This document shows positions 6,190 through 42,465 of a DNA stretch of 64,000 nt, piece after piece. The translations under genes and the position numbers were made by a program. Positions within the stretch are counted from its first letter, which is position 1, and every line of letters begins with the position of its first letter. The stretch comes from Microbacter margulisiae (GTDB lineage Bacteria > Bacteroidota > Bacteroidia > Bacteroidales > Paludibacteraceae). The notes below the pieces were generated by a model that searched no databases, was not told the origin of the DNA, and was given only the letters and a program-made list of their open reading frames with translations. The stretch lies in assembly GCF_014192515.1 (NCBI RefSeq), contig NZ_JACHYB010000001.1, positions 248,001 through 312,000 of the forward strand, written 5' to 3'.

Positions 6190-7518
6190 ATGATTGACCA
6201 ATCACAGTTTTATGATAAGAAGATGGCATTCTTCACGTTAGGATGCCGGTTGAATTTTGCAGAAACGTCGACTATCGGCAGGCAACTGGCCGAAGCGGGT
6301 TTTCGAAAGGTGAAAGCAGGAGAGAAGGCTGACATTTGTGTGATTAACACATGTACGGTGACGGACCTGGCAGATAAAAAGTCGAGGCAGGCAATTCATC
6401 GCCTTATCCGACAACATCCGTCAGCTTTTATTGTGGTGACAGGATGTTATGCACAGCTTAAACCCGAAGAGGTCAGCTCGCTGGAAGGGGTTGACCTGGT
6501 GCTGGGGGCAAATGAGAAATTTGATATTTTACATTATGTTGATTCGCTTGAAAAAAGATCAACAGCTGAAATACAGCATATCGACAGTGATCAACTGCAA
6601 TCTTTTTTCCCTTCTCTTTCTCACGATGACCGTACGCGTTTTTTCCTGAAGGTGCAGGATGGATGCGATTATCAATGCAGTTATTGTACGATTCCGAAGG
6701 CACGAGGCCATAGTCGTAACGGGACGATTGCCGACACGGTGGCTCTTGCCCGGAAGGCTGCGGAGGAAGGGGCGCAGGAAATTGTACTTACAGGCGTGAA
6801 TATTGGAGATTTCGGCAGATCGACATCCGAATCGTTTTTTGATTTGATTCGTGCGCTGGATGAAGTGGAAGGGATTGTCAGGTACCGGATTGGCAGTGTA
6901 GAACCGAATCTTTTGACGCATGAAATCATTGCGTTTGTGGCAACATCCAAACGATTTGCTCCGCATTTTCATATTCCGCTGCAATCGGGGAGCAACCATG
7001 TGTTGGGGTTGATGCGACGAAGGTATCAGCGGGAACTTTTTGAAGAGAAAGTTCAAGAGATCAAGCGATTGCTACCCAATGCCTTTATAGGCGTGGATGT
7101 GATAGTGGGTATGAATGGAGAGACCGAAGCCGATTTTGAGGATGCTATGGAATTTATCCGGCGATTACCTGTTTCGCAGCTCCATGTTTTTACTTATTCA
7201 GAACGATTGAATACGAAGGCTTTGGAAATAGCAGATACTCTTCCACAGGCTGTCCGCAAACAACGTAGCGACCGAATGCATGCCCTTTCTGACGAGAAAC
7301 TGAACATATTTTACAAGGAGAATATAGGATCCCAAGCAGTTGTGTTATGGGAAGCCAATCACAAAGGGGAGATGATGACCGGGTTCACTGAGAATTATTT
7401 GCATATTGCCGCTCCTTATGACCGGTCTAGAATAAATACATTAGAGCAGGTGATTCTGTCTGATTTCACCGAATCATTAACGGCGAATGGGTGGATTGGA
7501 TTTCAGGTTACCCGTTAA
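6190..7518 (+). CDS. mtaB: tRNA (N6-threonylcarbamoyladenosine(37)) methylthiotransferase MtaB
   Basis: This radical-SAM methylthiotransferase shows the three N-terminal UPF0004 cysteines (TLGCRLNFAE, INTCTVT, VTGCYAQ) that hold the auxiliary 4Fe-4S cluster. The CxxxCxxC radical-SAM site follows in GCDYQCSYCTIP. The NFAE opening (rather than NxxDS) and TCTVT are typical of MtaB rather than MiaB or RimO. MtaB converts t6A37 to ms2t6A37. The C-terminal ~70 residues would be the TRAM region but are weakly conserved. ATG 6190 is preferred to TTG 6184. It is followed 73 bp later by tgt. Confidence 0.9.
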   Translation: MIDQSQFYDKKMAFFTLGCRLNFAETSTIGRQLAEAGFRKVKAGEKADICVINTCTVTDLADKKSRQAIHRLIRQHPSAFIVVTGCYAQLKPEEVSSLEGVDLVLGANEKFDILHYVDSLEKRSTAEIQHIDSDQLQSFFPSLSHDDRTRFFLKVQDGCDYQCSYCTIPKARGHSRNGTIADTVALARKAAEEGAQEIVLTGVNIGDFGRSTSESFFDLIRALDEVEGIVRYRIGSVEPNLLTHEIIAFVATSKRFAPHFHIPLQSGSNHVLGLMRRRYQRELFEEKVQEIKRLLPNAFIGVDVIVGMNGETEADFEDAMEFIRRLPVSQLHVFTYSERLNTKALEIADTLPQAVRKQRSDRMHALSDEKLNIFYKENIGSQAVVLWEANHKGEMMTGFTENYLHIAAPYDRSRINTLEQVILSDFTESLTANGWIGFQVTR

Positions 7519-7591
7519 TAATCCGATTGCCAGATTTATGACAGAAATTATGGCATCCAATAAGCCAATACAATTATAAAAGACGAGACTA

Positions 7592-8722
7592 ATGAAATTT
7601 GAGCTACAGCATATTGACACTAAGACGAATGCCCGTGCCGGTGTTATCACTACCGATCATGGGACGATAGAAACTCCTATTTTTATGCCTGTAGGAACGG
7701 CAGGATCGGTGAAAGCGGTGCATCAACGAGAACTGGCAGAGGATATTAAAGCCCAAATCATTCTGGGGAATACCTACCATTTGTATCTTCGTCCCGGCTT
7801 GAATATTTTGGAACAGGCAGGAGGTTTGCATCGTTTCAATGGCTGGACGAGGCCTATTTTGACCGATAGCGGTGGATTTCAGGTCTTTTCATTGTCGGAG
7901 AACCGGAAACTAAAAGAGGAAGGAGCCCATTTCCGATCACATATTGATGGGTCTAAACATCTGTTTACTCCCGAAAATGTGGTTGATATACAGCGCATTA
8001 TAGGAGCAGATATTATGATGGCATTTGACGAATGTACGCCCGGAACAGCTGACTATGATTATGCCAAGAAGTCGATGGAGTTGACTCATCGCTGGCTGGA
8101 AAGAGGCCTCCGCCGGTTTTCGGATTCTGATCCTAAATATGGCTATTTGCAAGCTTTCTTCCCTATAGTACAAGGATGTGTTTATCCGGATTTGAGGAGA
8201 CAGTCGGCTGAATTTATTGCTAAACAAAATCAGGCAGGGAATGCCATCGGGGGATTGGCAGTGGGTGAGCCAACTGAAAAAATGTATGAGATGATTGAGG
8301 TGGTGAATGAGATTTTGCCTAAAGACCGTCCGCGTTACCTGATGGGGGTAGGGACTCCGGCCAATATTCTGGAAGCCATAGAGCGGGGGGTTGACATGTT
8401 CGATTGTGTCATGCCTACCCGGAATGGACGTAATGGCATGATTTTTACTTCAAACGGTATTATGAACATGAAAAATGAGAAGTGGAAGTCAGATTTTTCC
8501 CCGTTGGATGCAGCAGGAACATCTTATGTAGATTCTTTTTATAGCAAAGCGTATGTGCGGCATCTGTTTGTGAGTCAGGAATTTTTGGCAATGCAGATTG
8601 CTTCGATCCACAACCTGGCTTTTTATCTGAATTTGGTGAAGGAAGCTCGACAACATATTATGGAAGGGGATTTTGCAAACTGGAAAGCCAGGATGGTGAA
8701 ACAAACCATGCAACGGTTATGA
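7592..8722 (+). CDS. tgt: Queuine tRNA-ribosyltransferase (Tgt) lacking the usual zinc cysteines
   Basis: At 376 aa this is a full-length TGT: TDSGGFQVFSL, MAFDECTPG, VQGCVYPDLR, GGLAVGEP and DCVMPTRNGRNG are the substrate and catalytic motifs of the base-exchange enzyme that inserts preQ1 at G34 of GUN tRNAs. In classic bacterial TGT a CxCxxC plus His binds zinc after the PLD motif. Here that stretch reads PLDAAGTSYVDSFYSKAY, with no cysteine; only the later IHNL histidine remains. The rest of the C-terminal helix (RHLF, IHNLAFYLNLV) is intact, so this is not a truncation. The same change may be common in this phylum; I could not check. Confidence 0.92.
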   Translation: MKFELQHIDTKTNARAGVITTDHGTIETPIFMPVGTAGSVKAVHQRELAEDIKAQIILGNTYHLYLRPGLNILEQAGGLHRFNGWTRPILTDSGGFQVFSLSENRKLKEEGAHFRSHIDGSKHLFTPENVVDIQRIIGADIMMAFDECTPGTADYDYAKKSMELTHRWLERGLRRFSDSDPKYGYLQAFFPIVQGCVYPDLRRQSAEFIAKQNQAGNAIGGLAVGEPTEKMYEMIEVVNEILPKDRPRYLMGVGTPANILEAIERGVDMFDCVMPTRNGRNGMIFTSNGIMNMKNEKWKSDFSPLDAAGTSYVDSFYSKAYVRHLFVSQEFLAMQIASIHNLAFYLNLVKEARQHIMEGDFANWKARMVKQTMQRL

Positions 8723-8815
8723 TAGTAATGATTAAAATGTTGCGATGAAAAGCTGATTTCTGTCTTTTTATCTTCTTTTTTATGAGATAGCGAACAAAAA
8801 GACATTAAAATGTTG

Positions 8816-8823
8816 TATCTTTG
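8816..8823 (+). promoter_or_regulatory. TATCTTTG -7 box ahead of small lipoprotein
   Basis: TATCTTTG fits the Bacteroidota -7 consensus and lies 52 bp before the ATG at 8876. The -33 region is weak. Confidence 0.45.
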
Positions 8824-8875
8824 CGACAAATTATTCTCTGTGTTTAACATTTGAACATTTAAAAAATGCACTGCT

Positions 8876-9373
8876 ATGAAAAATCTGATGTATTTCGTTA
8901 TGGCTGCTTTTTTGGTCACGGCATGTGGCAGCAATGAACACTCAGCCCAAAAGCTGATCAAGGAACAAATGAAAAATATAGTATCGAATTATACGAATTA
9001 TAAATCAATTAGTTTCGGAGGGTTGGATTCCCTGTATACCACCTATCAAAAGGATTCTACCTATGTTCAATTGATGCGTAAAGCAGATACTTACACCGCC
9101 TTAGAGAACCAGCAAACTCAAAATGCCATCATGGCTAAGACCGTGAAGGCAACCAAGGCTATTAAGACGTTGGTTGATGCTTATGCTGATTCCGCAAAAA
9201 TGGCTACTACTCAGGCTAATCAGTATGCTCAAGGATTCAGAAAGTCGTTTGCCGGTTGGCAAATGAGTCACACCTTTTCAGTACAAGATGCTCAGGGAGC
9301 CGAGCAAATCCTGACGTATAAATTTTATTTTGATAAGCCCCTGAACAATCTGGTGGGGTGGGAGAAAGAGTAA
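8876..9373 (+). CDS. Small lipoprotein of unknown function
   Basis: The 165-aa product starts MKNLMYFVMAAFLVTACGSNE. The hydrophobic segment ends in a lipobox (LVTAC), so it should be lipid-anchored at about Cys17. The mature part is hydrophilic and probably mixed alpha/beta, with a YTNYKSISFGGLDSLYTTY segment and an FYFDKPLNNLVG end. I do not recognise a named family. It stands alone after tgt with its own -7 box, and is followed by the convergent copper operon. Confidence 0.7.
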   Translation: MKNLMYFVMAAFLVTACGSNEHSAQKLIKEQMKNIVSNYTNYKSISFGGLDSLYTTYQKDSTYVQLMRKADTYTALENQQTQNAIMAKTVKATKAIKTLVDAYADSAKMATTQANQYAQGFRKSFAGWQMSHTFSVQDAQGAEQILTYKFYFDKPLNNLVGWEKE

Positions 9374-9573
9374 TCTGAGTTTACCTGGCTGTTTGTGGGT
9401 TACTCTGTCATAGTGTCCGATCTAAAAAGCGCTGTTTCGTCTTGCTTGCATTTCCTTCATCAATTCTTTTCTTTTCAGCATACTTTACAGCGCTTTTATT
9501 CTAAATCAGGACTATTTTCTTCCTTCCCCGAATATTTAATTTTATCTACACCTGTTTTATATTTTGTGTTGCA
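9374..9573. other. Intergenic spacer between lipoprotein gene and cusB
   Basis: About 200 bp between two convergent genes. A 65-codon open frame at 9395-9592 has no recognisable content, and I do not call it. Apart from the hairpin at its end I see no signal. Confidence 0.5.
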
Positions 9574-9602
9574 GTATGTAATGCCTTTATAGCATTACAT
9601 AC
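9574..9602 (-). terminator. Hairpin over the cusB stop codon, probable end of copper operon
   Basis: A perfect 11-bp inverted repeat (GTATGTAATGC at 9574-9584, GCATTACATAC at 9592-9602) with a 7-nt loop overlaps the last codons and stop of cusB. There is no clear T tract on either strand, so it may act as an mRNA 3-prime stabiliser or as a weak or bidirectional terminator. Confidence 0.45.
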
Positions 9603-10881
9603 CGGGCATTGCTGCCATCCCAGGGGATTTCTTCGTTGATTTTATGTCTGAACTCATCATGTTGGGCTTGCCTGCCAGTTGGGCGGCGGCATCAACACTG
9701 AACGTTCCGTTGGTGACAATTGTATCTCCTTCGTTTAGACCGGCTAACACCACGTATCCATTATTGACAGAAGGGCCAAGTGTTATTTCGCGCATCACGA
9801 ATGCCGGGTCAGCGGCGTCAGGAGTTTTGATGTAGACCAGAGAGCGTGTCCCCGTCCAAAGGACTGCCGACTGAGGAATAATCAGCTCATTGTTTCCTGA
9901 CAAGACAGAGCGTGAATCTCCGGTAACAAACATTCCCGGTTTAAGATTATCCCCTGGATTTTCTACTTCGACCCTGACGCTGGCAGTGCGGGTGTCGGGA
10001 TTGACCACCGGATCGATAAATGAGATTCTTCCCCGGAATGTTTCTCCCGGCATGGACTCTGTGGTAAACGAGATGATATCCCCAACCTTTAACCATGGCA
10101 GATCATTTTCGTAGGCATCAAACAAGACCCAGACTCTGGATAGATTTGCTATTTCGTAAAGTGGTTCTCCTGTAGATACATAATCCCCCACATTGACTTT
10201 TTTATCGAGCACGACTCCTGAGATGGGAGATATAACTTCAATATTGTTTTTGATTTGCCCGGAGGATTCGATGCGGGCAATTTGATTATCCGTCAGCTTC
10301 CACTCTTTCAGTTTTTCTTTTGCTGCCGGTAAAAGATTGGGGTAATTTTTTTGCATTTTAGCGGCTTCCAGTAGTTCTTTCTGGGCGGTAACCAGATCAG
10401 GGGAATAAATGGATGCTATGGGTTCGCCTTTCGCCACTGATTCGCCTGTGAAATTGAGGTTTAACCTTTCGATTCTCCCCGATACAAAAGCCGGTAATGT
10501 TTGTACCAATTGTTCGTCGGGGACGATTTTCCCATACAAGTGTAATTCTTTAACTGCATTTCCGCGCATCACTACCGATGTCTGGATGTTTGCCAACTGA
10601 ACAGCATCCGGTGTCATAACGACGGCATTTGAATCCACCACATTTGTTACCTGACTGAGCGGTATTAGTGTCATCCCGCAAATAGGACATTTACCCGGAT
10701 GATCCATCCTTATCTGGGGGTGCATGGCACATGTCCAGATTGTTTTTTGGGGATGACTTTGTGTTTGTTCCGTTTTGACCGGAGAAGGTGCCGAATGGTG
10801 AAACAGCAACCATCCCAGCACTATGCCTGCTATGACAAAAAGCGAGGTCCTAATATATGATTTTGCCAGTAGTTTTTTCAT
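9595..10881 (-). CDS. cusB: CusB-type periplasmic adaptor of copper/silver RND efflux
   Basis: The 428-aa protein has an N-terminal membrane anchor (SLFVIAGIVLGWLLF), then a metal-ribbon domain WTCAMHPQIRMDHPGKCPICGM at about residues 49-70. Next comes the membrane-fusion core: barrel-sandwich halves around VSGRIERLNLNFTGESV and VISPISGVVLDKKVNVGDYVSTGEPLYEI, and the beta-barrel part. The C-terminus is Met-rich (SPGMAAMPGM). This fits a CusB/CzcB-like adaptor linking the CusA pump to the TolC-like channel. It is last in the minus-strand copper block, 52 bp after the channel gene. Confidence 0.88.
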   Translation of the reverse strand: MKKLLAKSYIRTSLFVIAGIVLGWLLFHHSAPSPVKTEQTQSHPQKTIWTCAMHPQIRMDHPGKCPICGMTLIPLSQVTNVVDSNAVVMTPDAVQLANIQTSVVMRGNAVKELHLYGKIVPDEQLVQTLPAFVSGRIERLNLNFTGESVAKGEPIASIYSPDLVTAQKELLEAAKMQKNYPNLLPAAKEKLKEWKLTDNQIARIESSGQIKNNIEVISPISGVVLDKKVNVGDYVSTGEPLYEIANLSRVWVLFDAYENDLPWLKVGDIISFTTESMPGETFRGRISFIDPVVNPDTRTASVRVEVENPGDNLKPGMFVTGDSRSVLSGNNELIIPQSAVLWTGTRSLVYIKTPDAADPAFVMREITLGPSVNNGYVVLAGLNEGDTIVTNGTFSVDAAAQLAGKPNMMSSDIKSTKKSPGMAAMPGM

Positions 10882-31287: not shown

Positions 31288-31389
31288 ATCAAAAAAGGGG
31301 GTTTGAAGGTCAATTTTAACATTTAACCCTTTTCCGGACTCCTTTCTTTGTATCATTTTTTACAGTGATGTATCAAAATAATTTTTTCG

Positions 31390-31832
31390 ATGCATAGAAA
31401 TCTCACTGCAAAGCATTGCAATCCTTTTTCAATGCATAGAAATCTCACTGCAAAGCATTGCAATCCTTTTTCAATGCATAGAAATCTCACTGCGAAGCAT
31501 TGCAATCCTTTTTCAATGCATAGAAATCTCACTGCGAAGCATTGCAATCTTTTTTCGATGCATAGAAATCTTACTGCGAAGCATTGCAATCTTTTTTCAA
31601 TGCATAGAAATCTTACTGCGAAGCATTGCAATCTTTTTTCAATGCATAGAAATCTCACTGCAAAGCATTGCAATTTTTTTTCGATGCATAGAAATCTCAC
31701 TGCAAAGCATTGCAATCTTTTTTCGATGCATAGAAATCTCACTGCAAAGCATTGCAATCTTTTTTCGATGCATAGAAATCTCACTGCAAAGCATCGCAAT
31801 TCTTTTTCGATGCATAGAAATCTTACTGCGAA
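31390..31832. repeat. Minisatellite: 11 tandem copies of a 42-bp unit
   Basis: ATGCATAGAAATCT begins a unit at 31390 and every 42 bp to 31810; the last copy is partial. Each unit holds the palindrome ATGCAT and a hairpin TGCAA-agca-TTGCA. Copies differ at a few positions only (CAC/TAC, AAAG/GAAG, ATCC/ATCT, TCAATG/TCGATG). Because 42 is a multiple of three and the unit has no stop, both strands are open across the array, but neither reading looks like a protein. Confidence 0.95.
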
Positions 31833-31852
31833 GGGTCTATTCAATAAAGTGT
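31833..31852 (+). repeat. 20-bp sequence shared with 53867-53886, possible IS-end remnant
   Basis: GGGTCTATTCAATAAAGTGT directly abuts the minisatellite and occurs identically, same orientation, upstream of kdpA. It resembles the ends of IS256-type elements, but no transposase is near either copy. Confidence 0.5.
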
Positions 31853-31903
31853 GTCAGGGAAGGGAAGTTCGGGAATGTCTCTTTTGAGATAAATGTCCGG
31901 CTT

Positions 31904-33043
31904 TCATTGCTGCCGCAAACTTGCTTTGTATTCGAAAGGCGTTTGGCCGTAACTTTTCTTAAAGGCGCTGTAAAAAACCGATTTGCTACGGAATCCGCTT
32001 TGCAATCCGATGGCTTCGATGGTCATCCTGTCGGCTTGGTCGCTCTCAAGCAGCTGGCAGGCATGCAGGCAGCGGTATTCGTTGATGAAATCGGAAAAGT
32101 TTTTGCCACAGTGCACATTGACCACGTGGGAGAGATGATGTTGCGGGATGTTCGTTTGAATGGCGGCGGCTTCCAGCGTGCATTCGGGGTTCAGGTATAT
32201 CCTGGTGTCAGACAGGATTTCATGCAGCCGCTGTATGTAGTCGTCCACCAGTTGCTCTTCCAGTTTTATTTGCCGTTCGGGTTCGGACAGGATCTCTACC
32301 GCGGCCTGCATTGAAAGTCCGGTGCTAAAGATGGATTGCAGGAAGATGTATCCTGCCAGCAGGCCAATGACAGAGGTACCCACCACAAGCTCCATCCCGT
32401 TGCAGTCGTCTGCCATGCAAAGCGGCAGGTGGAGCAGGACACCTGCCATCGCGATGAGGAGGGCATAGCAGAGCCAGCGGATATTCGCCCGGCACCCCTT
32501 GGACTCAAGCAGGTAACCGGACTCCCGCTGCTGGTACACTTTCAGGAAAGAGACCATCAGGTAGGGCATCAACTGGAGGTAGAAAAGATAGTCGAGCAGG
32601 TTTTCCATCCAGCGCCGCGGGTCGGAAGCATCGAGCAACACGCCCGTGCGTTGCTTCAACGGCAGCGAGATGAAATAGCCCACATAGGCCAGCGCAGGCA
32701 GAGCCGGGAGGGCATGCCTGGCAAACTGCCGGGCCGTGATGCGGCGTGAAGGATCGAACAACAGCAACACATAAAAATAGAGCAACGGCCCGATGAACAT
32801 CACCAGCACCTGGTCGAGGGGAAGATACCACGGCAGCAGGAAGTCCATCTTCCGGCCGTATATATAATAAAGGAGTAGCATCCACAGGCTGAGTGCCGCC
32901 AACAGCAGGAAGATCCCTGCCAGCATCCGGTTTGCCCTCCGGATAGATGATGGCCTCGCCCACAGCAGCAGGGCAAAGAGAACCAGCAGGAATCCGGACA
33001 AAAGGGAGAAGGCGGTGAACATGAATAAATGAGTAATGGACAA
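31904..33043 (-). CDS. Membrane-embedded AraC-family transcriptional regulator
   Basis: The 379-aa protein has about seven transmembrane segments in its first ~240 residues (e.g. FSLLSGFLLVLFALLLW, MLAGIFLLLAALSLWMLLLYY). A cytoplasmic AraC HTH domain follows at about residues 275-375 (DFINEYRCLHACQLLESD, MTIEAIGLQSGFRSKSVFYSAFKKSYGQTPFEYK). This architecture is common in Bacteroidota, where a membrane sensor is fused to the DNA-binding domain. The gene is visibly richer in GC than its neighbours. Its targets are unknown. Confidence 0.85.
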   Translation of the reverse strand: MSITHLFMFTAFSLLSGFLLVLFALLLWARPSSIRRANRMLAGIFLLLAALSLWMLLLYYIYGRKMDFLLPWYLPLDQVLVMFIGPLLYFYVLLLFDPSRRITARQFARHALPALPALAYVGYFISLPLKQRTGVLLDASDPRRWMENLLDYLFYLQLMPYLMVSFLKVYQQRESGYLLESKGCRANIRWLCYALLIAMAGVLLHLPLCMADDCNGMELVVGTSVIGLLAGYIFLQSIFSTGLSMQAAVEILSEPERQIKLEEQLVDDYIQRLHEILSDTRIYLNPECTLEAAAIQTNIPQHHLSHVVNVHCGKNFSDFINEYRCLHACQLLESDQADRMTIEAIGLQSGFRSKSVFYSAFKKSYGQTPFEYKASLRQQ

Positions 33044-33312: not shown

Positions 33313-34003
33313 GAATGCAAATTCTTCATCATAAATTAAGCCTGTTAAATATTTCGACACAAAACTAAGTAAAGAAATTGGTGTTGCCAACATTTTGTAT
33401 CAAATATTTCACAGAATAATCATTTAGTGTAAAGATTGACGAAGATTATATATGCAAATAAGAACAATATGAAGCTATTTTGTATTTTACTTTTTGTTGC
33501 CTGCGTGCAGGCAGCGGACACCTGCACAGGGCAAACATCCCTCTTTTCATGCTCTTTACAGCACAACACCCCGGCTCCTCTTATTGTACTCCCTTATACC
33601 CATCTGCTCCCATTATATCAAATGTTGATAACTGATTGATATTTTTTGCTGTTAGATTAAAAATAATTGTTTACATTTGAAGCGGACATTGGAAAAAGAG
33701 GAAAATAAGTTATCATTACGATTTATATGCCTAATGTTGGGCAAACGGAGAGGGGAAAGAAGATTAATTTGAGCGTTGTTTGTATTCAAATTACAAATAA
33801 GGCGGATATATACACAACTCAGGCGCATAGAGGAATGTTTGATTCACTATTTTCTTTTGCACATTAAATAATGGTCGTAAAAATTTGAAACTTAATTTCT
33901 TTTCCATAACTATGGTGCACGAAAATGATGAATAAAACACTAAGATGTTAGGTTGAGAGTACATCGTAACTAGAATAATAGTAGATTTGATAAAAAAATA
34001 ATT
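33313..34003. other. AT-rich gap at left edge of the accessory region
   Basis: About 690 bp with no confident gene; a small signal-peptide frame is listed separately. GTTAGGT at 33947-33953 fits the integron core-site consensus GTTRRRY, and TAGATTTG at 33982-33989 fits a -7 box just before the ATG at 34004. I found no complementary left arm for an attC here. Confidence 0.4.
33469..33639 (+). CDS. Possible small secreted peptide or gene remnant
   Basis: From the ATG at 33469 there are 56 codons: MKLFCILLFVACVQAADTC looks like a signal peptide, followed by a short Cys/Pro/Leu-rich tail. No family is recognised. It may be the decayed start of a larger exported protein. Low confidence. Confidence 0.25.
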   Translation: MKLFCILLFVACVQAADTCTGQTSLFSCSLQHNTPAPLIVLPYTHLLPLYQMLITD

Positions 34004-34681
34004 ATGGAAGTATTCCAAGATTTAAAACTCAAACCCAAAAATCCAGAGAGTATTGATTTACTAATTTCTCGGATAAGGGAGAAAGCAAATAACAGTGATT
34101 GGACTGTTAAGAATGATTTTGTTGAAAACTACAGGAAGAATTTAGGAGAAAATGAAAAGAAAGTAATTTGTTTGATGTCTCCTAAAATAAAGATATCAGA
34201 TAAAGAAATTCAAGCATATGTATGGCTTGGTCAATGGAAAAGTACTCTGGATGTATTTAATATTGTACCTATAAAAACAGGTAGCTTATCCTTTTCAGAG
34301 TATAATTATATCTTACAGCAGTTTTACAAACTTTTCATTGAACAAGAAATTGAAAAATTAGAATTTGAGATTGTTTATACAGAATCAGAGAAATCAATTG
34401 AAAAACTTGCAGGAGAAGAAGTTGCTAGAGCTTTAAAAAAGTTTTCATTAGCTGCAAATAAATCAACAGGACATTCTCGCCAAATGGACTCTGAGAAATG
34501 GAAAGAATTCATTTGTTTAGCACACAAGCTTAAATCAGAATTAGGTGTTGAGGAGTTAGTTAGATGGCTAAAAGATGATGAAGGTTGGAGCGATGACAAA
34601 GCATGGGATTTGGGTCTCGATTATGAATATTCAATGGATTTACTTAACTATTATGACTCAAATTTTAGCATCAACGATTGA
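34004..34681 (+). CDS. Hypothetical protein, first gene of a two-gene PIN module
   Basis: The 225-aa protein has no signal peptide or membrane segment. The N-terminal half alternates strands and helices (NYRKNLGENEKKVICLMSPKIKISDKEIQAYVWLGQW). The C-terminal ~80 residues are helical and acidic (SEKWKEFICLAHKLKSELGVEELVRWLKDDEGWSDDKAWDLGLDYEYSMDLLNYY). I do not recognise a family. Its last 29 bp overlap the start of the PIN-domain gene, so the two are translationally coupled. An acidic partner of a PIN RNase would fit an antitoxin, but 225 aa is large for that role. It may instead be a second component of a defence module. Confidence 0.6.
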   Translation: MEVFQDLKLKPKNPESIDLLISRIREKANNSDWTVKNDFVENYRKNLGENEKKVICLMSPKIKISDKEIQAYVWLGQWKSTLDVFNIVPIKTGSLSFSEYNYILQQFYKLFIEQEIEKLEFEIVYTESEKSIEKLAGEEVARALKKFSLAANKSTGHSRQMDSEKWKEFICLAHKLKSELGVEELVRWLKDDEGWSDDKAWDLGLDYEYSMDLLNYYDSNFSIND

Positions 34682-35369
34682 ATTAATAGATGACTTCAGT
34701 CTAACCGTAATTGGAGACAGAAAAAAGATAATCTTTTGGGATACATGTGCTTTATTGGATATTATTAGATTTCCACGTGATAATAATTCTGCATCATTAG
34801 CCAGTCTGATAAAAATACATAAAGAAATTGTAAATGATAGAGTCTATTCTGTTGCATCTGAAATAACTATTAAAGAGTTTAATGACCATGAATCTTCAAC
34901 AATAACGGAATCAAAAGAGATTATTAAAAAAAACTCCGAACAATATGAATCTATAATGGAAATAGTAAACTTCTTTACTAGCTCACAAACTGGTTATAGT
35001 CATATTAATACTGTCTCATATAACATTGAAAGGTATCTGATAAACATAGTTGATGAAATCATTCAAAAAACAGTTTTTATACAGAAAGATGAGATTGCAA
35101 CTGTATGGCTTGATAGGATTGTACAGAAGAAAACGCCATTGCGTAGAAAAGGAGAATATAAAGATGCGGCAATATGGTCAACCTGTATATCTTTAGCAGA
35201 TAAAATTGATGCAGCATCTGAACTTGAAAATGTGATTTTCTTTTCAAGTAATGTTAATGATTATTACCAAGCAGGGACGACAAATTTTAGCCATGACATA
35301 TTAACTGAATGTACTTCATATAATATTGCATTTGCGATAAACTTTGATGTAGTATTTTTAAATCTATAA
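34653..35369 (+). CDS. PIN-like (DUF4935-type) ribonuclease domain protein
   Basis: With the ATG at 34653 the protein is 238 aa. PIN-fold acidic positions are visible: first strand KIIFWDTCALLDII (Asp30, Asp36), SEITIKEF (Glu70/Glu75), and RKGEYKDAAIWSTCISLA, with the DAxIW motif of this PIN subgroup. A late strand reads VIFFSSNVNDY. PIN domains are Mg-dependent RNases found in toxins and defence proteins. The frame is open from 34575, but that start would overlap the upstream gene by more than 100 bp. It is followed within 10 bp by an attC-like palindrome. Confidence 0.68.
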   Translation: MTQILASTIELIDDFSLTVIGDRKKIIFWDTCALLDIIRFPRDNNSASLASLIKIHKEIVNDRVYSVASEITIKEFNDHESSTITESKEIIKKNSEQYESIMEIVNFFTSSQTGYSHINTVSYNIERYLINIVDEIIQKTVFIQKDEIATVWLDRIVQKKTPLRRKGEYKDAAIWSTCISLADKIDAASELENVIFFSSNVNDYYQAGTTNFSHDILTECTSYNIAFAINFDVVFLNL

Positions 35370-35378
35370 AACCCAGCC

Positions 35379-35508
35379 GCTAACATTTTGTATAAGGAAT
35401 GGCAGGTAAAGTGCTAAATATCATGGTTTGTAATCCACTCAAACTGTATAACGGCTTGACAGGGAATTACCACGCAATCTGCCACTACTCATACAATTTA
35501 CCGTTAGC
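35379..35508 (+). repeat. attC-like 130-bp imperfect palindrome, copy 1
   Basis: The left arm GCTAAC-ATTTTGTATAAG...TGGCAGGTAAAGTG pairs with the right arm, which reads on the opposite strand GCTAACGGTAAATTGTATGAG...TGGCAGATTGCGTG. Outer AAC...GTT core, long imperfect stems and a variable centre are the attC layout, and the next gene starts 33 bp after the GTTAGC end. The 7-bp core boxes match RYYYAAC/GTTRRRY only partly. The copy at 37619-37746 is about 80% similar by eye. Confidence 0.6.
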
Positions 35509-35540
35509 ATCAATGCAAAAAAAGACATAACTCAAAATAT

Positions 35541-36272
35541 ATGAGCGAGATAAACTATAGACACATTGCGACTCAGATTGGTGATTCTTTGAAATATTCC
35601 ACCTCTGTAAATGAAATTGATAGAATTGGTCAATCTATATTGAGAGTTAACAAAGAAAACTTCCCTAATTCTTCTATTACATCTGTAAGAGCTCAGTCTT
35701 TGTACAACTGGATTATGACATTAGCCAAGACTCCTTTAGAAAATTCTGAGAGAACAAAAAGGCTAATAAACTTTTGTCTCGAACTCACTCCTGATGAATT
35801 TAAAAGAAGCACCATTGATTTCTTAGAGAAAAATAATTGTCCATATAGTCTATTGCACAAAGATAACTTAGACGAATTCTTGAAAAGGAATTTTCACTCA
35901 AATGTAATAAAACATTCACAGAAACTTTTTATTCAAGGAAATTACTTTCATGCTGTGTTTGAAGCTGCAAAGGCATTTAACAAAGATGTTAAAGAAAAAT
36001 CACGTTGTGATAAGGATGGTCAGCCTTTGATGTTAAATGTTTGGGGCTGTGAAAATGGAGTTTTGAAAATTACCAAATGCGAATCCCAAACAGACAAGGA
36101 TTATCAAGATGGAATAAAATTTCTTTCAGGGGGTTTAATGAGCGCAATAAGAAATCCAACTGCACATGAGCCAGCAATTTCATGGCCTATAGATAAGCAG
36201 GATTGTTTGGACATACTAAGTCTTATTTCATTTTTGTATCGACAGTTGGATAAGTCTGTTTATTTCAAATGA
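35541..36272 (+). CDS. TIGR02391 (Ymh) family protein with HEPN-like motif
   Basis: The 243-aa protein ends in the TIGR02391/Ymh domain: KLFIQGNYFHAVFEAAKAFNKDVKEKS, DGQPLMLNVWG, then DGIKFLSGGLMSAIRNPTAHE. R204-N-P-T-A-H209 fits the HEPN Rx4-6H catalytic motif. HEPN proteins are RNases or nucleotidyl-transfer partners in toxin-antitoxin and abortive-infection systems. The N-terminal ~110 residues are helical and unassigned. It is first in a three-gene plus-strand operon, 41 bp before an Abi_C gene, and lies directly after an attC-like site. A defence role is inferred. Confidence 0.75.
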   Translation: MSEINYRHIATQIGDSLKYSTSVNEIDRIGQSILRVNKENFPNSSITSVRAQSLYNWIMTLAKTPLENSERTKRLINFCLELTPDEFKRSTIDFLEKNNCPYSLLHKDNLDEFLKRNFHSNVIKHSQKLFIQGNYFHAVFEAAKAFNKDVKEKSRCDKDGQPLMLNVWGCENGVLKITKCESQTDKDYQDGIKFLSGGLMSAIRNPTAHEPAISWPIDKQDCLDILSLISFLYRQLDKSVYFK

Positions 36273-36313
36273 AAATAATTTAGTCTTAAATATCAGTACA
36301 TTATATATCATTC

Positions 36314-37228
36314 ATGAACCTAATTACTAATATTACTCGCAGAAACATTGCTGATGAGCTTATAGCAGCAAAAATTTGGTATAACGGCAGATTAGGTGAA
36401 CCTGATTTCTTAAGTCGCATTTATGATTTAAAGAAGATGCCATCAAGAGATTACCGATATACCAATGCTTACGATGATATTTATCAACATATGGTAATGA
36501 ATAATGATTGGGAATCTGATTGGGTATTTACTGATACAAGATTTAATCTAATGCACTCATCTGATGAGGAATATTTAAAGTTTTTGGTAGAAACTATACA
36601 TCCTGCTGTAAGGGGAGATGACAATCAAGTTCTTCAAATACAAGAAATATATAATAAGCATCTTGAAAATGATGGTTTTGAAATAATTCAAGTCAGCGAG
36701 ATTTCTGGTAAACCTGTATTTGAGGGGCGGCAAAAGATTATAGGCAAATCACATTTGGTGGCAAAGAAAGCGGAGATTAAAAAATATTTGAATACAGAAT
36801 ATGTAAACAATAAAATTAATCTAATGAATGAAGCTGTGTCAAGTGATACTGATTTAGCAATTGGGACAGCTAAAGAATTAATTGAAACTGCATGCAAATC
36901 GATTCTTAAAAAACATGGAAAAGAAAGTGACCCTAACTGGAATTTAGGTAAACTTTTTAAAGAGACTTCTGACATATTAGACTTTAAACCCAAGAAAGCA
37001 ACAAATCCAGATAAGGCTGACACATCTGTAAAACAGATTTTAAAAGGAATAACTACTTTAATAAATGGAGTAGCAGAATTAAGAAATGCTTATGGTTCAG
37101 GACATGGTAAAGAATCTGATTTTCAAATGTTGGAATCAAAATATGCTAAATTGATTGTGGGTACAGTTTCTGAAATTGTAATATTCATTTTGGCGACAGA
37201 TGGAGAAGACACAGAAATAATAAATTAA
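36314..37228 (+). CDS. AbiJ-like abortive infection protein (AbiJ_NTD3 plus Abi_C)
   Basis: The 304-aa protein has an N-terminal region (LGEPDFLSRIYDLKKMPS, ANAYDDIYQH-like segment, NNDWESDWVF, FLVETIHPAVRGD; residues ~25-105) resembling the AbiJ N-terminal domain 3. A C-terminal Abi_C domain spans ~165-280 (AKELIETACKSILKKHG, VKQILKGITTLINGVAELRNAYGSGHG). R257 and H264 form an Rx6H HEPN motif. Such proteins act as phage-triggered RNases in abortive infection. It is the second HEPN-type gene of this operon and is followed 12 bp later by a small acidic protein. Confidence 0.8.
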   Translation: MNLITNITRRNIADELIAAKIWYNGRLGEPDFLSRIYDLKKMPSRDYRYTNAYDDIYQHMVMNNDWESDWVFTDTRFNLMHSSDEEYLKFLVETIHPAVRGDDNQVLQIQEIYNKHLENDGFEIIQVSEISGKPVFEGRQKIIGKSHLVAKKAEIKKYLNTEYVNNKINLMNEAVSSDTDLAIGTAKELIETACKSILKKHGKESDPNWNLGKLFKETSDILDFKPKKATNPDKADTSVKQILKGITTLINGVAELRNAYGSGHGKESDFQMLESKYAKLIVGTVSEIVIFILATDGEDTEIIN

Positions 37229-37240
37229 ACTATAAAACCT

Positions 37241-37606
37241 ATGGACATCAACGAACTTGAAAAAAAGATTAAACAAATTGCTACAGAAAAAAACATCAGA
37301 GAACAAGAAGTAATTAATGGCATTCTTGCAAATCTTGAGTTAGTTTATTCACCAAAAGACCATTCTGAGCAAGACAGAGAGATAATAGATGGGATTAAGC
37401 AAAAGATTTTATCGACATTGCTTAACTGTGATAATCAAAAGAAAATTATTAACCAAGCAACCAAGTATGATGAATTATTCGACCTTGACCGTGTTGAAAT
37501 GAGCTTAATGCAAGATGCTTGGAATGAGTTAGAAGCAGACCGAGATGTGTTTTCATTAGCATTTGAGATAGGATTAACCGATGAAGGAATTAGAAAATAT
37601 AGATAA
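37241..37606 (+). CDS. Small helical acidic protein, third gene of the HEPN operon
   Basis: This 121-aa protein is predicted mostly helical and charged (ELEKKIKQIATEKNIREQEVINGILANLEL; YDELFDLDRVEMSLMQDAWNELEADRDVFSLAFEIGL). No family is recognised. Size, acidity and tight spacing after an Abi_C gene would suit an antitoxin or accessory subunit; this is inference. Its stop is 13 bp before the second attC-like palindrome, so it closes the cassette. Confidence 0.62.
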   Translation: MDINELEKKIKQIATEKNIREQEVINGILANLELVYSPKDHSEQDREIIDGIKQKILSTLLNCDNQKKIINQATKYDELFDLDRVEMSLMQDAWNELEADRDVFSLAFEIGLTDEGIRKYR

Positions 37607-37618
37607 AGTACTACTGGC

Positions 37619-37746
37619 AACATTTTGTATAAGTAAAGGCAGGCGATGTGGTAAATATCAAGGTTTGTAGCCCGTTCAAACTGCGTAGCGGTTTGACAGG
37701 AAAGCGCCACGCAATCAGTCACTACTCATACAATTTTCCGTTATGT
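37619..37746 (+). repeat. attC-like imperfect palindrome, copy 2
   Basis: Left arm AAC-ATTTTGTATAAGTA...GATGTGG pairs with a right arm that reads on the other strand AACGGAAAATTGTATGAGTA...ATTGCGTGG. The right end is GTTATGT, like the GTTATGC of Vibrio repeats. Internal blocks (GTAAATATCAAGGTTTGTAG, TTTGACAGG, CCACGCAATC, CACTACTCATACAATTT) are shared with copy 1. The next gene starts 22 bp later. Confidence 0.6.
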
Positions 37747-37767
37747 GCAAAATAAAAAAAACGCTTC

Positions 37768-38505
37768 GTGGATAAATTATTTTCCATATTGATTAAAAAT
37801 GAAGACAGTTCATATAGTCATAAAGGAACTGGTTTTTTGATTAGTTCTGATGGATTATTTATCAGTGCATGTCATGTATTTAATGGGATTGAAAACCCGT
37901 GTGAAAGATTCTTCTGTGCATTTCCCTCTGATAATGCTAATTTGATTTCAATTATATCTTTGAACTTTGAATATAAAAATACCGAACAACAAAAAGGGTC
38001 AGTTTATAAGGATTTGGCAATAGGGAAAATGGATTACAATTCTGATAATTACTATATTTTAAAACGAAAAAGGCCTTTGATAAATACTATTCAAAAAATA
38101 ACCGGATATGTTTTTGTTGGAACTGAAAATAGATTTCAAATGAATGCCAACGGGACATTAAATTTAATACAAATTCAACCAGATACACTTGAGACCGTGA
38201 TTGTCAATCGTTTTGCGGTGATTTCTAATGATTTAAACGATTATCAGAAAGAAGAATTATCGATTGAAAATAAAAAGAAATACAACAATGTTTTAACTTT
38301 AAGAAATACTGCGCATCATGGTTCAAGCGGTTGTCCAGTGATAAACTCAAATAGCCAAATAATAGGAATGTATTTTGGGGGACCATCAAATCACAGGATT
38401 TGCCATATATTAACGTCTAAATATATCGGAAAGAGAATTAAAAAGTTGACTAATTATAAATTTGACAGGTATCAAGATATAAAAATTTCTGCGCACAATA
38501 CTTAG
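37768..38505 (+). CDS. Trypsin-like serine protease
   Basis: The 245-aa protein has no signal peptide, so it should be cytoplasmic. The catalytic triad is visible: GTGFLISSDGLFISACHVF (His36), VYKDLAIGKMD (Asp82) and HHGSSGCPVINSNSQIIGMYFGG (Ser187 in GSSGCP). It begins at GTG 37768. Intracellular trypsin-like proteases in bacteria often serve as effectors activated by partner proteins in defence systems. Here it stands as a single-gene cassette after an attC-like site. Physiological target unknown. Confidence 0.8.
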   Translation: MDKLFSILIKNEDSSYSHKGTGFLISSDGLFISACHVFNGIENPCERFFCAFPSDNANLISIISLNFEYKNTEQQKGSVYKDLAIGKMDYNSDNYYILKRKRPLINTIQKITGYVFVGTENRFQMNANGTLNLIQIQPDTLETVIVNRFAVISNDLNDYQKEELSIENKKKYNNVLTLRNTAHHGSSGCPVINSNSQIIGMYFGGPSNHRICHILTSKYIGKRIKKLTNYKFDRYQDIKISAHNT

Positions 38506-39323: not shown

Positions 39324-40193
39324 TCAACAATTTGACTCCTTAGAGTCAGTGTTTACATGTTCAGTATAATTAGCCATACAAAAATATTCATTTTCGAACT
39401 GCTTTGGACTTTTTCGTTGTAACTTACTATGCGGTTTTTGGGTATTGTAAAGAAACACACTTCGGTCAACCTCTATCTGTAATTGTTCGAAAGAATTGAT
39501 AACTCTATGAATTAGATAGTTGTTTTTAATAATGCCGTTAATGCGTTCAGCTTTTCCATTCTCCCAGGGATATTGACACATACTGTTTCTGATTTTGTAT
39601 TTTTCAGTCAGTTTCAGGAAATCTTTATCATAATACTGCCCACCTCCGTCAGAATGAAAAATAAGCGCATGAATACATATATTCAAATCCATGCGGGATT
39701 TGATTGCTTTTTGTAAAGCAGGCAAAGTAGTTTGTTCGGTCTTTAATCGTTGTGAAATGGCATGACCCACAATTACTCTGGAGAAAGCGTCCATGATAAA
39801 GGTTATGTAATAAAACTTTCCGTTGAGATCAAAGTAAGTAATATCACTTTGCCAAACCTGATTGGGTTTATTAATAACCAATCCGATCAGCAGATTATCA
39901 AACCGGATTACACCCGAACTATCGGTGGTTTTTCGCAAGTTATGTGTGCGCTCCACCATTAAGCCGGATTCCTTACAAAGTATTTCAAAACGATCCCTGC
40001 CCATATCAATGGGAGCTATTTTGAAATACATATCGCGTAATCCCATCGTAGGATGATCCTCACGGACACGATATACTAACATTAGAATTTGTTCTTCAAT
40101 AGAGCGTTCTTGCAGGTATCTGTCCATGCGCTGATGAAAAGCCTGTTTGCTTACTCCGATACTTTGATAGAGTTTGTTTAAGCTGTAAGCCAT
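39324..40193 (-). CDS. IS3-family transposase OrfB (DDE catalytic subunit)
   Basis: The ~289-aa protein has an HTH_21-like N-terminal region (DRYLQERSIEEQILMLVYRVREDHPTMGLRDMYFKI). The rve integrase core follows: WQSDITYFDLNGKFYYI (first Asp), IFHSDGGGQY (second Asp) and YPWENGKAERINGIIKN (Glu). These are the DDE residues of IS3 OrfB. The ATG at 40193 overlaps the OrfA stop by one base (GTGATGG), so OrfB may be made by reinitiation in addition to frameshifting. Confidence 0.92.
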   Translation of the reverse strand: MAYSLNKLYQSIGVSKQAFHQRMDRYLQERSIEEQILMLVYRVREDHPTMGLRDMYFKIAPIDMGRDRFEILCKESGLMVERTHNLRKTTDSSGVIRFDNLLIGLVINKPNQVWQSDITYFDLNGKFYYITFIMDAFSRVIVGHAISQRLKTEQTTLPALQKAIKSRMDLNICIHALIFHSDGGGQYYDKDFLKLTEKYKIRNSMCQYPWENGKAERINGIIKNNYLIHRVINSFEQLQIEVDRSVFLYNTQKPHSKLQRKSPKQFENEYFCMANYTEHVNTDSKESNC

Positions 40194-40606
40194 CACTTTC
40201 CGGTTTGCCCAGAAGTACTGGATGGTGTGGAAAAGAATTTTTTTTTAATATCCACTCCATAGGTTTCTTCTGCTAACTCTATCATCTTATCCTGAAAATC
40301 AATGAGTATTTGCTTTTGACCAATGATGCGTTCAAGTTCAGATATCCGTTTCTTGAGTTCAATAAGTTGACGGGTGTCACTCTGGGTTTCGACAATCATA
40401 CGTTCTCCTTTGTCCTTTTTCATGCTGCCAAATTTATCTATCCAAAGATAGACATTTTTATAAGCAACCTGATACTGAGAACAAATCTCTGATACTTTGG
40501 TTTGTCCCGTTTCAATTTCCCGAACTTTTTGAATCTTGAAATTGTCACTGAATTTACGCCGACGACGTTCGGCTGTACTCATTTTTAATTGATCTGGTCG
40601 TGCCAT
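40193..40606 (-). CDS. IS3-family OrfA (helix-turn-helix protein)
   Basis: The 137-aa protein has an HTH region (KFSDNFKIQKVREIETGQTKVSEICSQYQVAYKNVYLWIDKFG) and a leucine-zipper-like helix (RQLIELKKRISELERIIGQKQILIDFQ). This is the usual layout of IS3 OrfA, which binds the inverted repeats and multimerises. It begins 63 bp inside the right end of the element. Confidence 0.9.
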   Translation of the reverse strand: MARPDQLKMSTAERRRRKFSDNFKIQKVREIETGQTKVSEICSQYQVAYKNVYLWIDKFGSMKKDKGERMIVETQSDTRQLIELKKRISELERIIGQKQILIDFQDKMIELAEETYGVDIKKKFFSTPSSTSGQTGK

Positions 40607-41014: not shown

Positions 41015-42465
41015 CAATGTCATTAAGTTAGCGATATAATTATCTGATTATCAACAATAAACGCTTGTGTATATGAGTTATTTTTCGTATATTTGTTTCA
41101 TAATCAAATAGTTATTATCATGAAAAAAAACGCCGGAAAGTATATTGGAACTGATAAGGAAAAGAGTATTTTCGCAGGAAATAGTTTTAAAGTTCAGAAT
41201 GTTAGAGACAGATTTTACAAGAAACAGGAAGCAATCATTTCACAGCACCATTGTCTTTATGATAAATTTTCTCACGAAAAGTCTTTCGGTTGAGATAGCT
41301 AACTTTATTAGTTTCATAAAGTACAATATGCCTGGTGCTTCGATAAATGGTATTACAAAAAGTGCTTTTGTACAGTATCGTAAAAAGATAAAGCCCGAAG
41401 TATTTAAGTCACTTTCAGATAGTTTGATTGAGGAGTTTTATACAGACAATGATGCATCTATAAAGCTCTGGAATGGATTTAGGTTGTTGGCTATTGATGG
41501 GTCAAGATTGGTTTTGCCCGATACTCAGGAGTTGGAAAGCATTTATGGTAAGACCAGAAATCAATCTGAAACCGGGGTGGTACAGGCCAGAATATCGGTA
41601 TTGTACGATGTTTTGAATCGGTTTGTCCTGGATGGTGTTTTAGCTCCACTGTCAACTGGGGAGAGTGTTTTGGCGTTGAATCATTTGGTTTTTGCAAAAG
41701 CTAACGACTTGATTATTTACGATAGAGGTTATCCTTCTTTCAATTTGATTTATGAGCATTTTGAAAAAGGAGTAGATTTTCTCATTCGGGTTAAAGCTGA
41801 TTTCAGTAACCTTACTCGTGAATTTTACCAGAGTGGACTACCGTCAGCTATTGCTCGAATGCAACCTGGAAAGAACATAAAACTTTCAGATAAGCCGTAT
41901 TCGAAAAATACATTCAAAGATGTCCGGCTGGTTCGGGTTGAACTACCTGATGGAGAAGCAGAAATACTGATAACCTCTTTGTTTGACACACAAAAATATC
42001 CAAACTTTCTATTTAAAGAACTGTATTTTTTAAGATGGGGAATCGAAACGTTTTACGATGAATTGAAGAACAAAATAAAAATTGAGCATTTTTCAGGCTA
42101 TTCAGAGCATTGTATATTGCAGGATTTTTATGCAGCCTTATTTGTATCAAACGTTCAGAGTTTAATCGTTGGAGAAATAAACGATGAATTAGCCAAAGAA
42201 TCAACCAAATATCAATATCAATACAAAGTCAATAGCAATTTATCATACGGCTTTCTCAAAGACAGGATAATTTTATTGTTTTTCTCGGACAAAGACATGA
42301 CTGAAATAGTATCAGAACTCAAATCGTTGTTTAAAAAACACACGATACCAATACGACCAAATAGAAGATTTGAGAGAGATACTGACAAATACAGAAAAAG
42401 AGGTAAACCGAAGTTGCTGAAAAACAATAAAAATACTTTCTGATGGCCTTAACTTAATGACATTG
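41015..42465 (+). mobile_element. IS4-family insertion sequence (1451 bp) with 10-bp target duplication
   Basis: Ends CAATGTCATTAAGTTA (41015-41030) and its inverted copy (42450-42465) bracket one transposase gene. CCCGCGCGAT occurs directly outside both ends (41005-41014 and 42466-42475), a 10-bp duplication as expected for IS4. The rejoined target is itself a hairpin (CCCGCGCGAT-tccc-ATCGCGTGGG), so the element entered one arm of a palindrome. Confidence 0.92.
41145..42443 (+). CDS. IS4-family DDE transposase
   Basis: The ~430-aa protein has the IS4 N-terminal region (MLETDFTRNRKQSF...TKSLSVEIANF), the first catalytic Asp in LLAIDGSRLVLPD, the second in DLIIYDRGYPSFN, and the YREK signature YFLRWGIETFYDELK. 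The frame is open from TTG 41145; the first in-frame ATG is 41199. A natural-looking ATG at 41120 (MKKNAGKYIG) is in another frame, with an A-run of eight bases after it. The N-terminus may therefore be frameshifted or use slippage. Confidence 0.88.
   Translation: MELIRKRVFSQEIVLKFRMLETDFTRNRKQSFHSTIVFMINFLTKSLSVEIANFISFIKYNMPGASINGITKSAFVQYRKKIKPEVFKSLSDSLIEEFYTDNDASIKLWNGFRLLAIDGSRLVLPDTQELESIYGKTRNQSETGVVQARISVLYDVLNRFVLDGVLAPLSTGESVLALNHLVFAKANDLIIYDRGYPSFNLIYEHFEKGVDFLIRVKADFSNLTREFYQSGLPSAIARMQPGKNIKLSDKPYSKNTFKDVRLVRVELPDGEAEILITSLFDTQKYPNFLFKELYFLRWGIETFYDELKNKIKIEHFSGYSEHCILQDFYAALFVSNVQSLIVGEINDELAKESTKYQYQYKVNSNLSYGFLKDRIILLFFSDKDMTEIVSELKSLFKKHTIPIRPNRRFERDTDKYRKRGKPKLLKNNKNTF

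Follow-up and report, generated by a model that had tools for sequence, protein, structure and literature searches.

A cassette-like unit of Microbacter margulisiae carrying genes for two different predicted HEPN ribonucleases: a candidate mobile defence module

HEPN ribonucleases are effectors found widely in prokaryotic immunity and are usually regarded as single proteins or self-dimers. In a stretch of 64,000 nucleotides of the Microbacter margulisiae genome (NCBI RefSeq assembly GCF_014192515.1; contig NZ_JACHYB010000001.1, positions 248,001 to 312,000; the whole stretch is referred to below as the window), a cassette-like unit carries genes for two different predicted HEPN ribonucleases, one of the Ymh (TIGR02391) family and one of the AbiJ family, followed by a small third gene. 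Among the closest described systems is PD-lambda-3, whose source is reportedly the 2022 work of Vassallo et al. This system served as an abortive-infection control, and was called an abortive-infection system, in the accessible part of a 2026 paper (PMC13190303), and a PD-(D/E)XK nuclease is listed for it in the accessible part of a 2023 review (PMC10952713). The HEPN survey PMC3710099, referred to here and below for its accessible portions, defined Ymh and AbiJ as HEPN families with conserved sites, and proposed roles for HEPN domains and a sensor function for the N-terminal domains. In these portions, Ymh is listed with restriction–modification operons, and AbiJ is presented in fusions with a variety of N-terminal domains, the forms without such domains being located in restriction–modification operons. 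The same portions tabulate the Bxe_C0808 HEPN family as "in operon with AbiU2", another HEPN family, list HEPN proteins in integron cassettes (PDB 3jrt family) for Gammaproteobacteria, and contain no mention of Ymh with AbiJ in one operon.

On balance, we favor reading the cassette as a mobile abortive-infection-type defence module with the two predicted ribonucleases as its core, based on the order of the genes, the conservation of the HEPN residues, and the recurrent pairing of the two families with separate origins on the AbiJ tree. The three genes are encoded on the same strand with gaps of 41 bp (genes 1 and 2) and 12 bp (genes 2 and 3), and the open reading frames (ORFs) and family matches bear out this compact arrangement with two HEPN families, which had been proposed in an original prediction made from the sequence. 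The gene 1 protein (isoelectric point, pI 8.43) matches PF09509 (9.3e-32) and TIGR02391 (88.1 bits; cut-off, 39.45), and HEPN structures are found among the best structural matches of the model of its residues 119–242. The gene 2 protein matches AbiJ_NTD3 (PF18860; 1e-53; 181.7 bits; cut-off, 32.5), Abi_C (PF14355; 4e-19; 68.9 bits; cut-off, 24), and the PADLOC AbiJ model (55.6 bits), showing the fusion of an AbiJ N-terminal domain to an Abi_C HEPN domain that marks the AbiJ family. A profile comparison between AbiJ_NTD3 and Ymh proteins gave no likeness. Both proteins contain the R-x(4–6)-H motif of the HEPN superfamily, and the residues that had been named in advance, R204/H209 (RNPTAH) and R257/H264 (RNAYGSGH), are invariant in the alignments of 30 Ymh and 28 AbiJ proteins, drawn from the top 120 listed for either family; conservation of the histidines, on which the prediction had been staked, was thus seen.

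For the recurrence of the pair, the species-genome collection was scanned with the AbiJ alignment, and the best 80 of 105 relatives were kept as AbiJ loci (loci are numbered with L, genomes with G), in which ORFs of at least 60 amino acids (aa) were called mechanically (1297 ORFs over 1.23 Mb). Ymh was found in seven of the 80 loci, always as the immediate neighbor of AbiJ, and no other Ymh gene was found within the 1.23 Mb, including two loci (L062 and L066) where no AbiJ was called at E 1e-20. In five of the seven, belonging to Bacteroidota, Desulfobacterales/Deltaproteobacteria, and Cloacimonetes, Ymh is located directly upstream on the same strand, with gaps of −4 to +86 bp (Table 1). The chance that seven randomly placed Ymh genes all fall in the 148 immediate slots among the non-AbiJ ORFs is 3e-7. 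At the Ymh density of the Bacteroidota sample, with an assumed mean genome of 3.7 Mb, the 80 loci would be expected to contain about 0.017 Ymh genes; both figures are rough, owing to the Bacteroidota-only density, the assumed genome size, the mechanical ORF calls, and the clustering of defence genes. Given seven adjacent Ymh genes out of seven and the figure of 3e-7, chance adjacency was rejected as the principal explanation of the pair. Within 300 bp of AbiJ, Ymh also constitutes the biggest cluster of neighbors (six members, the divergent one being further away), followed by a cluster of four members that we read, without a family scan, as type I specificity subunits.

The pair was also found in viral contigs and a plasmid. 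One of two AbiJ loci from IMG/VR holds both families (L117), with AbiJ followed by Ymh 15 bp on and then by a RES-domain gene, as does one of two IMG/VR Ymh loci (L143), in which a Ymh of the window type is followed by AbiJ 6 bp on and then by a HamA-domain gene. A joined query from L034 matched 230 plasmid records, one of which, Roseomonas mucosa pTT14-3, was covered to at least 80% and has the two genes overlapping by 1 bp. With the window pair as the query, coverage did not exceed 80% in any of 173 matching plasmid records, where the Roseomonas record was again the best at 78%, or in any of four phage records. L159 and L160, which share sequence with L004 and L015, were not recounted. In the ten pairs other than that of the window, the HEPN arginine and histidine are retained in all ten Ymh and in the nine AbiJ proteins where the motif is covered (L067 is cut by the contig end), and the asparagine next to the arginine is changed in two pairs (L073 and L145). 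The original suggestion of co-occurrence was borne out for the two HEPN families, which are immediate and mostly co-directional neighbors in unrelated genomes, while the trio was not found elsewhere. Because the two genes stand side by side in unrelated bacteria and in viral contigs, joint action is suggested, probably in phage defence, and the recurrence likewise points to a partnership of the two HEPN proteins.

What surrounds the pairs is varied. Families in their vicinity include RES, HamA, GIY-YIG, FRG, VapC, and a DUF1837-helicase pair, and the pair is followed by the RES gene in L117 and the HamA gene in L143; in L016, a gene 315 bp further on appears to be metabolic. As judged from translation only, the L016 pair (7460–9990) lies behind a putative DNA methyltransferase fusion that overlaps Ymh by 4 bp, and the L073 pair (3–2036) behind putative type I specificity subunits, with one 153-aa ORF between. 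For Ymh P0013 and AbiJ P0146, the longest contig measures 55,723 bases in each case, and the two are perhaps one more pair.

The AbiJ tree (73 proteins) was composed of 72 of the 78 called AbiJ genes and the window protein, and holds five Ymh-first pairs, that of the window included; proteins of up to 250 aa (L052, L055, L067, which is a pair, L069, L071, and L080) and those found later (L117, L143, and L145) were left out. By a quick method, the Ymh-first label needs four changes in this tree, all forced by starred branches, and all labels together need six. Moreover, the Ymh partners of AbiJ are of two kinds that have only the HEPN half in common: the PD-lambda-3_B type (L034, 437 bits over profile positions 1–266; L042, 432 bits; L016, 260 bits), full-length in L034 and L042, and the window type (L073, and L143 with 55% identity to the window Ymh). 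It appears, then, that the same combination of Ymh and AbiJ has been assembled repeatedly.

These results bear on the alternative that two or three unrelated defence genes were captured by chance in one cassette and have no joint function. Both families are common in databases and mobile (801 Ymh and 1449 AbiJ matches), the trio was not found outside the window, and most sampled members of either family occur without the other, as such passengers would. Against this stand the repeated immediate adjacency, often with tight or overlapping junctions, the lack of any non-adjacent Ymh in the 80 loci, and the rarity of both families in genomes: in the sample of 395 Bacteroidota genomes, four contain AbiJ_NTD3 (two above the cut-off), 19 contain Ymh, and two contain the small protein, each count including the M. 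margulisiae genome, which is the only one on more than one of the three lists. A sample of the order (198 genomes) gave AbiJ in eight and Ymh in six. We therefore judge independent passengers to be an unlikely explanation.

Several observations nevertheless weigh against the favored reading of a defence module built on the HEPN pair. The pairing is a minority arrangement, as 73 of the 80 AbiJ loci, some on short contigs, show no Ymh. Viewed from the other family, AbiJ is beside Ymh in none of 18 other Bacteroidota Ymh loci and none of five in the order; several of these 23 loci are truncated where the contig ends or are flanked by about 1.5 kb or less, and the Ymh profile re-found its gene in 17 of the 18 (not in L141). 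G866, the one genome of the order sample besides that of M. margulisiae with both families, has them on separate contigs. The order and orientation of the pair also vary (reversed in L117 and L012, divergent in L028), and the paired Ymh proteins carry N-terminal domains of two kinds.

If the module acts in defence, infection may be sensed by one or both N-terminal domains, AbiJ_NTD3 and the helical one of Ymh, which would also keep the HEPN domains inactive. Upon infection, the HEPN domains would cut cellular or phage RNA, and growth would stop before the phage spreads. The two HEPN proteins would most likely be partners in one response, either in a complex or in successive steps. A more far-reaching proposal is that Ymh-HEPN and AbiJ_NTD3-HEPN proteins constitute a mutually dependent two-ribonuclease effector pair, assembled several times, which works either as a relay or as a mixed oligomer whose active site is composite or cross-activated, and is plugged into varied carriers (cassettes, plasmids, and viral contigs) with changeable third genes for a small acidic, a RES-domain, or a HamA-domain protein; we regard this as conceivable yet rather doubtful. 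A recurring operon of two HEPN families, drawn in part from PD-lambda-3_B, would offer a testable case of two suicide ribonucleases acting jointly. It would also supply partners for two large sets of defence genes whose only labels in the records examined are names such as "TIGR02391 family" or "abortive infection family".

The third gene behaves differently. As predicted originally, its product is small, acidic (pI 4.64), and helical, the predicted model being all-helical at moderate confidence (predicted local distance difference test score, pLDDT, 70.5). It has no Pfam or NCBIfam family above the cut-off, no PADLOC match, and no convincing fold match, and it has only seven database matches, itself included, among 5.8 billion sequences (65–100% identity, one partial). 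In addition to the two phylum genomes counted above, it was found in one of 395 class genomes, again the M. margulisiae genome itself; G375, which belongs to the same class, is absent from the class matches. This G375 contains the one distant relative with readable context (40% identity), encoded 3 bp behind a PLD-nuclease-domain gene; the two genes form a two-gene cassette (L119, 6718–7902) between attC-like repeats of another family than those of the window. By eye, no Ymh is present among the listed neighbors of this relative. The N-terminus of the G375 PLD protein was considered as an AbiJ_NTD3 domain, which was left as unproven (18.1 bits against a cut-off of 32.5; profile comparison probability, 1.5%).

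No copy of gene 3 was found at the ten other Ymh–AbiJ pairs, eight of which are informative (L067 has two and L073 has 196 bases beyond the pair), and none was found with a hidden Markov model in the 80 AbiJ loci, L120, or L124–L142, or in the viral contigs and plasmids searched. Within the scope of these searches, the trio as a conserved unit, as the original prediction had it, was accordingly rejected. Because the trio was not found elsewhere and the G375 relative follows a PLD-nuclease gene, the recurring unit is the pair and the small gene is an add-on. The G375 context suggests that, within cassettes, the small protein associates with a nuclease gene, most likely AbiJ in the case of the window, and it would be an add-on that accompanies the AbiJ-like gene and not Ymh. 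Tentatively, it may be a regulator or inhibitor of the AbiJ-like nuclease.

An alternative in which gene 3 is central is a toxin–antitoxin cassette stabilizing the cassette array, with one or both HEPN proteins as the toxin and the small protein as the antitoxin. The small protein is acidic, as opposed to the basic pI of Ymh, its gene closely follows AbiJ, and the position of the G375 relative behind a nuclease gene in another cassette is what might be expected of a nuclease inhibitor; furthermore, integron-cassette HEPN domains have been proposed as dormancy-inducing ribonucleases in the accessible portions of PMC3710099. However, no copy of gene 3 was found at the other pairs (eight of ten informative), so that the HEPN pair is maintained without it and the inhibitor or antitoxin idea cannot apply to the pairs that lack it; the 80 AbiJ loci likewise gave no copy. 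Gene 3 is also the last of the three, whereas several type II pairs begin with the antitoxin gene according to the same portions. On these grounds, we consider a toxin–antitoxin cassette improbable, and retain the defence module with the HEPN pair as its core.

As to the mode of carriage, the trio has a G+C content of 0.32 (32%), compared with 0.42 (42%) for the window, and is bordered by two attC-like sites (Table 1), with the R''- and R'-like boxes named by eye on the basis of attC anatomy. The repeats at 35382–35523 and 37619–37760 are 80% identical across 142 nucleotides, which substantiates the originally proposed carriage between two such sites. A DNA search of the genome with the first repeat found four places, namely the two flanks, C1:453876, and C1:547400, one distant copy being shorter; in the alignment of the four copies, the core is conserved and the outer boxes are variable. 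An 18-nucleotide end motif, with up to three mismatches allowed, has three matches in the window (the third at 33386), compared with 0.08 expected in shuffled sequences. In the bottom-strand fold of the first repeat, the ends are paired, and 20 of 200 shuffles fold equally well or better (z, −1.4); for the second repeat, this applies to 123 of 200 shuffles (z, +0.4), and neither folding energy is exceptional. Cassette arrays without an integrase are known. No integron integrase above the TIGR02249 cut-off was found in the genome, where nine match rows represent weaker recombinases, and all 14 control genomes likewise match weakly. The match between the 3' attC-like site and the one in front, as in integron cassettes, is found at the sequence level only. 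Because the folding energies are unexceptional and no integrase exceeds the cut-off, "attC-like", the word of the original prediction, and "cassette-like" are the fitting terms, and the low G+C content and the attC-like flanks are compatible with mobile carriage.

Table 1. Features of the cassette in the window, and Ymh–AbiJ pairs in the species-genome AbiJ loci
Feature	Position in window	Strand	Description
attC-like site before the cassette	35379..35508	+	R''-like GCTAAC 35379–35384; R'-like GTTAGC 35503–35508
Gene 1, Ymh/TIGR02391	35541..36272	+	243 aa; N-terminal helical domain (~1–115) of its own type and C-terminal HEPN (R204-N205-H209)
Gene 2, AbiJ_NTD3 + Abi_C	36314..37228	+	304 aa; AbiJ_NTD3 (4–166) and Abi_C HEPN (213–293; R257-N258-H264)
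Gene 3	37241..37606	+	121 aa; acidic helical protein without known family
attC-like site at the cassette end	37616..37745	+	R''-like GGCAAC 37616–37621; R'-like GTTATG 37740–37745
L016, Prevotellaceae			Ymh first, same strand, gap 1 bp
L034, Labilibaculum			Ymh first, same strand, gap 28 bp
L042, Desulfobacterales			Ymh first, same strand, 4-bp overlap
L067, Deltaproteobacteria			Ymh first, same strand, gap 86 bp
L073, Cloacimonetes			Ymh first, same strand, gap 9 bp
L012, Dyadobacter			Ymh downstream of AbiJ (order reversed), 162 bp off
L028, Acidimicrobiia			Ymh divergent from AbiJ, 338 bp off

The cassette is neighbored by a PIN_12 gene upstream and a trypsin-like protease gene downstream. 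In this upstream cassette (34004–35369), the PIN_12 gene is overlapped by the gene of a family-less 225-aa protein, and the two may be a toxin–antitoxin-like pair. The protease gene (37768–38505) has a look-alike, judged from translation, at L121 (2296–2952), which belongs to a different cassette-like array of this genome. Near the cassettes, there are also a DDE_Tnp_1 transposase gene (41145–42443) and, by reading, an integrase-type transposase gene (39324–40606). A tandem array at 31298–31927 has a period of 42 bases with 17 copies in register, a shift of 21 bases giving a weaker likeness between copies.

The module had been put forward as undescribed, which stands insofar as the matches of the two HEPN proteins in PADLOC-DB 2.0.0 name no common system, and requires qualification insofar as the Ymh of some pairs is a full-length PD-lambda-3_B, which makes up half of an abortive-infection system already known. 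Literature searches with the spellings TIGR02391 or AbiJ_NTD3 found nothing, most subscription papers being outside the search, and no titles or abstract starts on the Ymh–AbiJ pair were found, a search for "ABIC" being swamped by other meanings. We also weighed whether the cassette is a PD-lambda-3 system with AbiJ in place of PD-lambda-3_A. The PADLOC PD-Lambda-3_B profile does match the window Ymh (90.5 bits), and the full-length B protein is paired with AbiJ in L034 and L042. This match, however, covers only the HEPN half (residues 115–239 to profile positions 139–263 of 270), the N-terminal half of the model being absent from the window Ymh. The E. coli genes themselves score 594 bits for B (L094) and 337 and 331 bits for A (L094 and L095). 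No PD-Lambda-3_A match was found in the cassette or elsewhere among the ten window proteins scanned, and profile comparisons of the E. coli A protein with AbiJ and with the small protein revealed no resemblance. Membership in PD-lambda-3 was rejected on these grounds, and a variant of it with AbiJ as the substitute seems very unlikely.

Altogether, the cassette resembles PD-lambda-3, a two-gene defence unit, in including a Ymh-HEPN protein, but in E. coli this protein is partnered by one of 159 aa and not by AbiJ, and the window Ymh has a different N-terminal domain. It agrees with the AbiJ family in that AbiJ_NTD3 and Abi_C are both present in gene 2, with the HEPN motif intact, and differs in that this AbiJ is paired with a Ymh-HEPN gene. 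The Bxe_C0808/AbiU2 operon, as tabulated in the accessible portions of PMC3710099, provides a precedent for the pairing of two HEPN families, although these are families other than Ymh and AbiJ. The integron-cassette HEPN proteins of the PDB 3jrt family in the same portions likewise show a HEPN protein carried in a cassette, with one HEPN family there, and here two together with a third gene in a cassette-like unit.
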